NCBI GenBank assembly: GCA_030752795.1
Contig: JASMDM010000061.1
Span: 1 to 64,000, forward strand
DNA length: 64,000 nt
Source: SAR202 cluster bacterium
Lineage (GTDB): Bacteria; Chloroflexota; Dehalococcoidia; Lucifugimonadales; UBA1123
Reading direction: 5' to 3'
In this document: positions 15,770 through 39,933 of the stretch, piece after piece
Layout: each line of letters opens with the position of its first letter
Numbering within the stretch: the stretch's first letter is position 1
Notes under the pieces: model-generated
Seen by the model: only the letters and a program-made list of their open reading frames with translations
Database searches by the model: none
What the model was told of the DNA's origin: nothing
Position numbers and translations under genes: made by a program

Positions 15770-16609
15770 TCAGGCCGATCTTGACTTGACGGCCGTGAAC
15801 TTGACGCTCGCGACCCTGCCTGCAACGAGGGCAAGATCCGCAGCGCTGGGAGGAGGACAGAATTCCTCTCCCGGGCAACTCGCCAATGCCCTCAATTCAT
15901 CATTGGACAGGATGTGGCGGTTCACGGTCCGCAGGTCTCCGAAACCCGCGTCTGACACCATCCGCCAATAGCCGGACTCGGCGATCGCTCCCCCCAGACA
16001 CCCGGCCCCGGCCGCCTGGAACCGCTCCCTGAGTTCAGGCGCCATCTCTTCCGTCAAGGCAATGTCCGAAATTGCCAACCGTCCGCCGGGCTTGAGAATT
16101 CGATAGGCTTCGCGATACACGGCGTCCTTGTCAGGACAGAGGTTGATGACACAGTTTGATATGACGACATCGGCGATGCTGTCCGGAAGGTCGAGCTCGG
16201 CGATGTCGCCGACGTGGAGTTTGACACGGCCTGCCAGGCCCTTCTCGGCCACGGCCTGGTGAGCCCGCTCGATCATCCGAGACGAAAAATCGACCCCAAT
16301 CGCTCGACCGTCGGAGGTTGCTCTTTCAGCGGCCAACACCAGATCGATCCCGGCGCCGCATCCGAGGTCCACGACCACATCACCGGATTTAATATCGGCG
16401 AAACCGACTGGGTTTCCGCACCCTCTGGACAGATCGAGGGCTACTTGAGGCACATCGGCGAGATCCGAGGGAGCGTACAATCCTTGATCGATCGCATAGC
16501 CCGAACCGGGCTGAGCTTGGCTCGATCAACACGCCTGCCCGTTGCCGCCACTCTCGGCAAACGCCCCGTATCTGGTTTTGACGGCTTGCTTTACTTCCGC
16601 GAGTTGCAT
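15770..16609 (-). CDS. ArsM-like SAM-dependent methyltransferase with in-frame UGA (candidate selenoprotein)
   Basis: Read through one UGA, this is a 279-residue arsenite-methyltransferase-like protein. The ATG at 16609 has a GGAGGA ribosome site 5 nt upstream; codon 28 (16528-16526) is TGA, directly after Cys27, where ArsM proteins have a Cys pair after the YGxxAExGG stretch. The frame then continues into SAM motif I (VVDLGCGAGIDLVLA), GVDFSSRMIERA, SNCVINLCPDK and LKPGGRLAISDI, all typical of ArsM. The UGA starts a 44-nt hairpin described separately. Without readthrough the only later start is a TTG with no ribosome site that would drop the conserved N-terminus. Methylation of As(III) or another metalloid is inferred from the family; the Sec reading is a hypothesis. 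Confidence 0.72.
16485..16528 (-). promoter_or_regulatory. SECIS-like hairpin beginning at the UGA of the ArsM-like gene
   Basis: Reading the minus strand from the UGA: TGATCGA pairs perfectly with TCGATCA at the far end (7 bp, including the UGA itself), and inside it AGCCCG pairs with CGGGCT (6 bp) around the tri-loop GTT. The apical loop begins 19 nt after the UGA and its first base is G. Size, spacing and loop G fit the known form of bacterial SECIS elements. A small competing stem (GAGC/GCTC) also exists. No folding program was run. Confidence 0.55.
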
Positions 16610-16784
16610 CTGCGTCCTCCCTGTGCATATCGGCATGGCGCGATGGTATCACGAACAAGCGCTGACACTGAACAGCCGTTGTGTTTCGTCAGCGGTGTGG
16701 CAGATGTGCCCTCGTTAGCAGGTTCTGTCGAGCACGAGCGTGGGATCGACGAGTTTGCCGATTCGAGGCAGTTTCTTTGCCGGT

Positions 16785-36615: not shown

Positions 36616-36739
36616 TGCAAGTCCTCCAATCAGACGTTTTCTTCGATATCAGTTCGTCTCCACGTATTCGACGGCAGCAGGTTGACGGCGGCGTCAGCCG
36701 TGTCGACGTGTAGAATGCCCCCGGCATTCAGCCTCAGCC

Positions 36740-37140
36740 TCAGCCGTACCAGGGTTTTTCGTAGGGCTCGATGCGCAGGTCCTCAACCAGCTTGTTGAAG
36801 CCGCTGAAAAGGTCCACAACCGCCATCAGCTCCGTGACGCCCTCGTTGTCCAGGCCCAACTTCTGCGCCGAAGAAGTGTGGACGTGTATTCAATAGTCAC
36901 AACCGTTCACCGCGGAGACGGCCACGGCGACGATTTCTTTAGTCAGGTGGTCCAGTTTCCCCGGCTCTACCGTCACTGACTTGACCTTGTTCCAGTTGGC
37001 CTCCAGATAGTCGGGTTTGGAAGCCATGGCATTGTAGAGATTGGGGACGAAGTCGAGGTCAAGTTGCGCCATGATCTCCCCGTAGAGATCTTTGACTTTG
37101 CCGATGCTTCTTCTTCCAATATCAATTTGACCGACGCCAT
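36740..37140 (-). CDS. AhpD-like (carboxymuconolactone decarboxylase family) protein with CxxU motif, candidate selenoprotein
   Basis: Read through one UGA and one single-base indel, this is a 133-residue AhpD-like protein. N-terminus MASVKLILEEEAS (ATG 37140), then a -1 shift near 37102 (TCGGCAAAG for an expected TCGGGCAAAG) into GKVKDLYGEIMAQLDLDFVP. The redox motif is NGCDY followed by TGA (36892-36890) and then IHVHTSSAQKLGLD, where family members have CxxC followed by H-x-x-x-A/S. The frame then runs on through EPYEKPWYG to a second TGA at 36742-36740. So the resolving Cys is replaced by UGA, in a family that already has described selenoprotein members. A SECIS-like hairpin follows. The role would be thiol peroxidase or disulphide reductase. 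Confidence 0.7.
36854..36892 (-). promoter_or_regulatory. SECIS-like hairpin after the UGA of the AhpD-like gene
   Basis: Six nt after the UGA, GTCCA pairs with TGGGC (one G.U) and, after one bulged C, ACTTCT pairs perfectly with AGAAGT, closing the loop TCGGCGC: 11 base pairs in all. The apical loop begins 18 nt after the UGA and contains G residues. An alternative register (CTTC/GAAG) puts GG first in the loop. Spacing matches the hairpin in the ArsM-like gene (19 nt). Judged by eye only. Confidence 0.55.
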
Positions 37141-37317: not shown

Positions 37318-37536
37318 TTAGAGGACCCGCGGGACTGGCTCTTTCTTCGTCGACTCGAACATCGACTTGAACATGTCGGGCATCGGATGTTCGGCGCCCG
37401 GGCTTGCCATGGGTCCGCAGCCGGCCATCATGTTTAGCATCTTCGCGCTCGACGGCCGGGAATTTGTTCCGGAGCAACAACTTTCGGCCATGGACGGCAT
37501 CATCGCCTCCATCATCTTCTTCATGTCGTGCATCAT
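37318..37536 (-). CDS. Met/Cys-rich small protein
   Basis: A 72-residue protein starting MMHDMKKMMEAMM, with AESCCSG in the first third and LNMMAGCGPM in the middle; about one residue in five is Met. AGAAGG precedes the ATG. I do not know a family. The Met and Cys clusters suggest soft-metal or metalloid binding, which fits the island, but this is inference from composition. It lies between the decayed arsM and the AhpD-like gene on the same strand. Confidence 0.6.
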   Translation of the reverse strand: MMHDMKKMMEAMMPSMAESCCSGTNSRPSSAKMLNMMAGCGPMASPGAEHPMPDMFKSMFESTKKEPVPRVL

Positions 37537-37684: not shown

Positions 37685-38489
37685 TTACTCAGCGGGCTTG
37701 ACCACCTGCACGACGGCTGACAGGACGTAGTCTCGGGCGTCGCTGCCGGAAACCCACTCGTCGAGCACTTCGGTGTGCTCGTCCTTGGGCCGAATCTCGA
37801 TCCCTTTAAATCCGGCTTCGGTCAAGGCCGCTTCGACCTGCCCGAACCCGGCGGCGCCGCTGACGCAGGAAGCCACGAGGTCAAGGTCGTTGCGTGCCGA
37901 GCCAGGGAGCTCCCCGGAGGCAACGACGTCGGAGATCGACAGCCGTCCGCCTGGTTTCAGGACGCGATAGGCTTCGCGATAGACAGCCGACTTGTCTGGT
38001 GACAGGTTGATCACGCAGTTGGACAGAATCACGTCGGCGGTGTCGTCAGCGACCGGCAGGTTCTCGATCGCGCCGAGCCTGAACTCGACCGTGTCGTAGC
38101 CGTTGTTGCTGGCGTTCGCCCTGGCCCGTTTCTCCGACGTGCTGGACCGCGAGGAAGCAATCCAAGCCGCAGCCGCAGCCGAGGTCGATCACCGTTTCTC
38201 CGGGCCGGATGTCGGCGGTCGCGCCTGGGTTTCCGCTCCCGAGGCTCATGTTGGCCGCGGCGGGGATGCTAACGAGTTCGGCTTCCGAGTACCCCGTGGA
38301 GCAGGAGCACAAGGACGCGTTGGATATTTCGTTGCCCGACGACTGTGGCTCTGTGCCGCACGATGACGGACCGCATCCGCAATCCGGTTCAGGCGCCGCC
38401 GCCGGCTTTGGCTCGCCGCGCGTGTCCGCTCCGGCGCAGTGCTCTCTGACCGCTGTCCTGATCGTGTCGTTAGTGTGTTGCTCGCTCAT
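37685..38489 (-). pseudogene. Second ArsM-like arsenite methyltransferase, broken by an internal deletion
   Basis: The ATG at 38489 (GGGAG upstream) opens [17 protein letters not shown], a Cys-rich N-terminus ([22 protein letters not shown]) and SAM motif I ([15 protein letters not shown]). After QHVGETG the frame is lost; another frame resumes with [19 protein letters not shown] and continues through SNCVINLSPDK and LKPGGRLSISDV to the stop at 37685. Compared with the gene at 15.8 kb, about a dozen residues are missing at the junction (about 38125-38140), including the GVD stretch that holds the SAM ribose, and the reading frame is shifted. So this copy is probably inactive, or misassembled. 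Confidence 0.7.
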
Positions 38490-38530
38490 GAAAACTCCCG
38501 CTATGTTGATTGCATCCGATTGTTTCGCCG

Positions 38531-38820: not shown

Positions 38821-38868
38821 TAATGGGTACGCTCACGCGCGAAGCAAATCATGAGAATCGATGTGGCA

Positions 38869-38896
38869 TTGACAAATGCGAGGAATTCAGTATAAT
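38869..38896 (+). promoter_or_regulatory. Consensus sigma-70 promoter of arsR (leaderless)
   Basis: TTGACA (38869-38874) and TATAAT (38891-38896) both match the consensus in all six positions, with a 16-bp spacer. The arsR ATG is at 38904, only 7 nt after the -10, so transcription should start at or next to the start codon and the mRNA is leaderless; no ribosome site is seen. Confidence 0.75.
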
Positions 38897-38921
38897 ACGA
38901 TGTATGTCGAATTATCGTATT
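38894..38921 (+). promoter_or_regulatory. Candidate ArsR operator
   Basis: AATACGAT and ATCGTATT are perfect 8-bp inverted repeats separated by 12 bp. They overlap the -10 box, the transcription start and the first codons of arsR, so bound repressor would block its own promoter. The half-site spacing fits a winged-helix dimer. Confidence 0.6.
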
Positions 38922-39266
38922 GAAGACCACATACAGTATGCAGAGATGTTCGCCGCGCTGTCGAATCCGAACCGGCTGCGCATCTTCTTGCGGTTGATGG
39001 ACTGCTGCGGCTCCGACATGCCGGCTTCTTGTACGCCGGATGAGCTGACAGGCGCCTGTGTCGGCGACCTTGGTCAGGACATGGGCATCGCGCCGTCCAC
39101 CGTTTCACACCACATCAAGGAGCTCTACCGCGCAGGGTTGATCGAGACGATCAGGCAGGGCAAACAAATCGAGTGCCGCATCGCCCCGAGCAAGCTCGTC
39201 GATCTGGCGGCGTTCTTCAACGGCCCCGCCGTACAAGAGGCGCCAACGGAGTGCGCGGTCGCCTAA
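38904..39266 (+). CDS. arsR: ArsR/SmtB-family metalloid-responsive repressor
   Basis: A 120-residue winged-helix regulator. YAEMFAALSNPNRLRIFLRL is the ArsR N-terminal signature, and the recognition helix is IAPSTVSHHIKELYRAGLIE. Between helices 2 and 3 is an insert with five Cys: DCCGSDMPASCTPDELTGAC and flanks, which replaces the classic CVC site and should bind a thiophilic ion such as As(III) or Sb(III). The ATG at 38904 is supported by the promoter geometry (leaderless). It is followed by a sigma factor and is divergent from the arsM/ahpD-like unit. Confidence 0.88.
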   Translation: MSNYRIEDHIQYAEMFAALSNPNRLRIFLRLMDCCGSDMPASCTPDELTGACVGDLGQDMGIAPSTVSHHIKELYRAGLIETIRQGKQIECRIAPSKLVDLAAFFNGPAVQEAPTECAVA

Positions 39267-39314: not shown

Positions 39315-39933
39315 ATGCAAACTGAGACATTGGCACGACACGAAGCCCGCGCGGGCGCTACTGAAGAACTCTGGGATTCGTTCGGAGATCGACTGAAAGA
39401 TTTTGTGCGCAAGCATGCCCGGAACGACGCCGACGTCGACGACATTCTCCAGGACGTTTTCGTCAAGGTTCATCGCGGGGTTGGGACGCTGCGTCAGCAG
39501 GATCGGCTTGTTCCGTGGCTCTTCCAGATCGCGCGAAACACGATCACCGACCACTATCGCCGCCAATCAAAGCTGGCGGACGGACTCGAAGAAGATGTGC
39601 CTGAGATGGCGGCTGAACGGTCTCGATGACGAGCGCGAAGCGTATTCATGGGTCAAGGCGATGGTGGATGAGCTCCCGCCAGCGTATCGCGAAGCGATCT
39701 TGCTTACCGAGTACGACGGGATCTCTCAACGTGAGATGTCGCGCCAACTTGGCATCTCATTCTCCGGCGCCAAGTCTCGTGTTCAGCGGGCGAGAGCCAA
39801 ACTGAAGGACAAGCTGCTGGACTGCTGCCATTTCGAGCTTGACCGGCGCGGCGGCGTGATCGACTATCGCTCCAAAGAGTCCGTGTGCGGATGCAGCTCC
39901 GCCCCGAACACGCAGGCCGCTATCGCTCGATAA
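39315..39933 (+). CDS. SigZ-like ECF sigma factor (one-base frameshift)
   Basis: Region 2 (DADVDDILQDVFVKVHRGV and RLVPWLFQIARNTITDHYRRQ) is in the first frame, which stops at 39629; region 4 (LPPAYREAILLTEYDGISQREMS) is in the +1 frame, ending 39933. Dropping one base near 39621-39624 joins AAERS to DDEREA and gives 205 residues. The C-terminal DCCHFELDRRGGVIDYR is the mark of SigZ-type sigma factors and contains a Cys pair that could sense thiol stress or metalloid. It follows arsR by 48 bp on the same strand. Real inactivation or a sequencing error are both possible. Confidence 0.75.

Follow-up and report, generated by a model that had tools for sequence, protein, structure and literature searches.

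A predicted AhpD-like CxxU selenoprotein family with a candidate second, C-terminal selenocysteine

AhpD-like or CMD-domain selenoproteins of bacteria, whose existence had also been noted in an earlier, sequence-only reading of the locus treated here, have been known with a CxxU site since the Sargasso Sea analysis of 2005 and, as AhpD-like 1 and AhpD-like 2, from the GOS analysis of 2008 (PMC1088965; PMC2398784, as far as the consulted parts of both describe them). In the stretch of 64,000 nucleotides analyzed in the present study (contig JASMDM010000061.1 of a SAR202 cluster bacterium; hereafter the window) an AhpD/CMD-family gene is located on the minus strand (36734..37140), running from ATG 37140 to a third in-frame TGA as the proposed stop, with a frame broken near 37102. 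Its translation reads ...AVNGCDY-TGA-IHVHTSSAQKLGLDNEGVTELMAVVDLFSGFNKLVEDLRIEPYEKPWYG-TGA, which raises the question whether the first of these two TGA codons, or even both, might specify selenocysteine (Sec).

The gene holds a true CMD/AhpD domain. Alignment with the CMD/AhpD families, a check proposed together with the sequence-only reading, gave 60.1 bits for the read-through protein against profile PF02627 (cut-off 23) and 55.2 bits against the AhpD core TIGR00778 (cut-off 27.8), in agreement with the claim of an AhpD/CMD-type protein with C-D-Y-TGA at the CxxC site; among the CMD matches in the source genome the window gene scored best, and its start, MASVK, agrees with that of the relatives. 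The spacing E-x11-C-x2-C-x3-H, which we take to be the proton-relay motif of AhpD as in the M. tuberculosis protein, is present as E55, C67, U70 and H74, Sec taking the place of the second Cys, and the predicted U70 presumably sits where AhpD has its nucleophilic cysteine. The AhpD-core protein 2OUW of Rhodospirillum rubrum is the closest solved structure in sequence (E 5e-20) as well as in fold (Foldseek E 2.5e-08, with about 38% identical residues in the latter alignment).

The comparison rests on six relatives (L033, L034, L051, L053, L054 and L058), three of which are incomplete, being truncated or internally deleted remnants (L051 4995-5140; L034 323-640; L058 1460-1650). A search for further copies covered 393 genomes from the class, 400 from the phylum, 25 from the order that includes genome G273, 29 from the class of genome G474 and 75 from that of the L034-bearing genome, and it added only L053 and L054 (each in a genome belonging to the window's class), the truncated L058 and a duplicate of the L033 record; a further locus, L065 in G474, matches L033. 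Among eight genomes of the family the gene was present in the window's genome only, and the relatives are scattered over Chloroflexota, an anammox planctomycete bin and a deltaproteobacterial bin. Scattered and partial copies fit a mobile and often lost gene, although binning errors are a possible cause of this distribution. No relatives were found in the viral contigs searched, and the plasmids searched yielded only relatives below 60% identity.

The first TGA (36890..36892, minus strand), which would turn the CxxC site into C-D-Y-U, is common to the window gene and two other lineages, L033 (ACGY-TGA-MEVHTS) and L034 (GCEY-TGA-LAVHTS), and the frame of the family is kept beyond it, as the sequence-only reading had observed; in L053 and L054 the codon is TGC (GCSY-TGC-IEVYTG). 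Between window and L033, dN/dS was 0.184/0.90 upstream and 0.149/0.71 downstream of this codon. Values so similar on either side indicate that the region after the TGA has been translated, and they point to equal purifying selection before and after it. In the two Cys relatives, L053 and L054, the E and H of the AhpD proton relay are replaced by A and Y, and hence their chemistry may differ from that of the Sec forms.

According to published rules, a bacterial SECIS element (bSECIS) has a stem of 4-16 bp and a loop of 3-9 nt with G in one of the first two places, 16-37 nt from the UGA (PMC13188914). The sequence-only reading had described an 11-bp hairpin beginning 6 nt past the first TGA, and folding of this candidate SECIS 1 (36854..36883, minus strand) resolved it, from the same position, into 5 bp plus 6 bp with one bulged C at about -12 kcal/mol; the upper stem, ACTTCT/AGAAGT, lies at 36877-36859. 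All three genes compared keep its shape, one pair having changed in a compensatory way, and the pair-shuffle test of this hairpin covers these three sequences only. In L033 and L034 the hairpin agrees with the bSECIS rules, whereas in the window the stem is present and the strict loop rule fails, because a T.C mismatch below the loop places the loop G third.

The source genome (3.5 Mb in 116 contigs) encodes the components required for decoding. The sequence-only reading would have had to be given up in a genome without selB and selC; both were detected, selB with 326 bits after its pieces had been joined (cut-off 242) and tRNA-Sec (selC) with 71.9 bits (gathering threshold 47), in addition to selA with 545 bits (cut-off 268) and selD with 366 bits, above its cut-off. 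The selD gene carries an in-frame TGA of its own at the canonical SCAG-U-AAK place (L028, contig C44), and contig C44 holds selD, selA and tRNA-Sec together. The genomes bearing L033 and L034 also have selA. The proposal of a C-x-x-U AhpD-like selenoprotein is thus strongly supported, because the TGA is shared, relatives have Cys in its place, selection is equal on both sides and the Sec machinery is present; we regard the first UGA as very probably a Sec codon in this gene family, a degree of confidence which applies to the CxxU site and extends neither to the tail nor to the substrate.

The state of the window copy itself could be read differently, namely as that of a pseudogene, in which the TGA would be one nonsense mutation among several lesions in a decaying cluster of arsenic genes. 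The sequence-only reading had already pointed to a 1-nt indel at 37102 which breaks the gene, and comparison with the relatives located it at 37100..37104 (minus strand), where the frame of L033, L034 and L058 runs through EATGKV without a break and the window has one nucleotide fewer: ATG 37140 to Ser 37104-37102 lie in one frame, the remainder from about 37102 in another. With this nucleotide missing, the window copy as assembled would give only a short peptide, while relatives with an unbroken start exist. Upstream follow a small ORF rich in Met and Cys, an arsenite methyltransferase gene (arsM; 37688-38490, minus strand) which has lost about 12 residues and suffered a frame shift, a divergent ArsR/SmtB-type regulator (38823-39266) and, beside the latter, a SigZ-type ECF sigma factor gene (39315-39930, plus strand) split by a frame shift near 39610, the third broken gene within 3 kb, whereas long genes in the rest of the window are unbroken. 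Given the missing nucleotide and the broken neighbors, decay or a local assembly error may affect the window copy, which may be non-functional. Such decay is compatible with the data and yet leaves the TGA unexplained, since the codon is common to L033 and L034, constraint is equal on both sides and relatives have Cys in its place; a pseudogene origin of the TGA is therefore considered very improbable. A changed genetic code, with UGA read organism-wide as Trp or Cys, would account for an in-frame UGA inside a conserved gene, but is still less credible and indeed close to negligible: relatives show Cys and not Trp at both TGA sites, table 11 leaves long window genes open, no stop codon is commoner than UGA in the control set described below, and the Sec machinery is present. 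Conservation of the TGA, its pairing with Cys in relatives and the presence of the Sec genes led us to reject both nonsense mutation and a changed code as its cause.

The second TGA (36740..36742, minus strand) had been taken by the sequence-only reading as the natural C-terminus, and this part of it probably needs correction: the codon more likely stands for a Sec that precedes a single last residue and the stop. It aligns with the Cys of KPWYG-C-G in L053 and of the KPWFG-type tail in L054, the codon being TGC in both, and these two proteins run past the KPWYG/KPWFG-type end into Cys-Gly (CGATGN, CGGH). TGA is found at this place in L033 and L051, and all three genes with a tail TGA have a stop exactly one codon later (TGA-AGC-TAG in L033, TGA-GGA-TAG in L051, TGA-GGC-TGA in the window), which in the window is the third in-frame TGA (36734..36736, minus strand). 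In L051 the CxxU region is gone, yet the KPWYG-TGA tail and the 3' hairpin described in the following are kept.

Ten nucleotides after the second TGA of the window lies a hairpin, GAATGCC-GGG-GGCATTC (candidate SECIS 2; 36713..36729, minus strand), which agrees with the bSECIS rules and has counterparts in L033 and L051 (ACGGATACC-GTT-GGTATTCGT and CCTGAATGC-CGTGA-GCATTCAGG). The three stems comprise 7, 9 and 9 bp, and the loops, GGG, GTT and CGTGA (G[G/U]), begin 17-20 nt after the TGA. Two pairs are changed on both sides, and the shuffle test covers these three sequences only. When the criterion was tightened to a stem of at least 7 bp and a distance of at most 21 nt from the TGA, such a hairpin was found in all three genes with a tail TGA, in neither of the two Cys relatives and in 2 of 354 controls, the latter being TGA codons that terminate open frames of 220 codons or more in all sequences analyzed. 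L053 has a weaker hairpin remnant, AATGC-CGTGA-GCATT.

These observations have to be weighed against the main rival to a second Sec, according to which the protein has a single Sec at the CxxU site, translation ends normally at the second UGA, the Cys tails of L053 and L054 arose by one-step loss of this stop, and the hairpin serves as a terminator or in another capacity. In favor of this rival, genes often end in UGA, a change from TGA to TGC needs one substitution only, and beyond Cys-Gly the tails of L053 and L054 differ. Against it stand the SECIS-like hairpin at the right distance behind three of three tail TGA codons, but behind only 2 of 354 control stops and in neither Cys relative, and the real stop exactly one codon on in each of the three genes. 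An intrinsic terminator is also unlikely, because no run of T follows the hairpin. We therefore regard the single-Sec explanation as possible, though doubtful, and favor, with some reserve, decoding of the second UGA as Sec in a tail KPWYG-U-(G/S). With the same reserve, the genes may be assigned to a double-Sec AhpD subfamily with CxxU and a C-terminal G-U-(G/S)-stop, in which one SECIS would be situated within the gene and the second past the coding end. The predicted protein, probably CxxU...GU(G/S)-stop, would carry its last Sec on a flexible tail; in a structure model residues 129-135, which form the tail, are disordered (pLDDT below 50).

In the best explanation the gene product would be an AhpD/CMD-fold thiol-selenol oxidoreductase of a scattered and rare subfamily. 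It is strongly supported that SelB and tRNA-Sec would insert Sec at UGA 36892-36890 under the control of the hairpin following it, to give C-x-x-U in the catalytic motif, while UGA 36742-36740 would, with fair probability, be decoded under the second hairpin past the coding end to give the flexible ...KPWYG-U-(G/S) tail. By analogy with AhpD-type peroxidases and disulfide reductases, CxxU might reduce a peroxide, a disulfide or a metalloid-thiol substrate. Animal thioredoxin reductase has a Sec near its C-terminus, on a tail which passes electrons, and the tail selenol could likewise pass electrons to or from CxxU. The neighboring arsM and arsR genes hint at a link to arsenic or metal stress.

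With the Sargasso Sea and GOS proteins, as described in the consulted parts of these papers, the window gene shares the PF02627/COG2128 fold family, the C-x-x-U site and a hairpin within the gene after the UGA; in those parts, however, one Sec and neither a C-terminal Sec nor a 3' SECIS is reported, the proteins being set apart here by these descriptions. A review of 2026 lists stand-alone AhpD-like proteins that have one Sec each, a fusion of ArsM and AhpD that has three and, in other families, Sec near the C-terminus, among them, in the part consulted, the UXX-star families of Haft and colleagues (PMC13188914). No AhpD protein with a C-terminal Sec was found in this review, and Haft and Tolstoy (2025) could describe such a subfamily. 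NCBIfam models of AhpD-type (seleno)proteins show detectable similarity around the CxxU site, but with the 119 residues that follow the frame break as query all stayed far below their cut-offs: NF041047 (GSU3128) with 20.2 of 110 bits, NF041238 (AhpD_rel_CFYUT) with 24.1 of 175, TIGR01926 with 55.6 of 81.8 and NF041537, the ArsM/AhpD fusion, with 25.9 of 510. The fusion unites ArsM and AhpD in one protein, whereas in the window they are separate genes. The UXX-star families, as far as described, and thioredoxin reductase resemble the window protein in a Sec few residues from the end and a proposed redox or metal-binding tail; they have other folds, however, whereas here the predicted tail Sec belongs to an AhpD domain which already has CxxU, and lies one residue from the stop. 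New, as a prediction, is thus the candidate second, C-terminal Sec in the AhpD family, the CxxU kind being already known.

If this prediction is true, the protein would parallel, in bacteria and in an unrelated fold, the Sec tail that animal thioredoxin reductase carries, and a seemingly natural UGA stop could hide a Sec codon with its SECIS past the annotated gene end. Gene callers would then stop at one or the other of the two UGA codons, and both Sec would escape them. The signature, a UGA, one codon, a stop, a SECIS-like hairpin and Cys in relatives, could be searched for in any genome.

Met/Cys-rich small ORFs lie directly upstream of the AhpD gene both in the window (37318-37536, minus strand) and in L058 (about 1117-1425); a Pfam search of these ORFs gave no match, and they are possible metal-binding partners. 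The arsM adjoining the AhpD gene (38490-37688) was considered as a second Sec case and rejected, the CxxG residue being Cys (TGC) and the break consisting of a deletion and a frame shift. The ArsM Sec case of the sequence-only reading is more likely the arsM at 15.8-16.6 kb. This second arsenite-methyltransferase-like gene (15770-16620, minus strand) reads MQLAEVKQAVKTRYGAFAESGGNGQAC-TGA-SSQAQPGSGYAIDQ... through a TGA at 16528-16526, which may replace a Cys next to a Cys (C-U).
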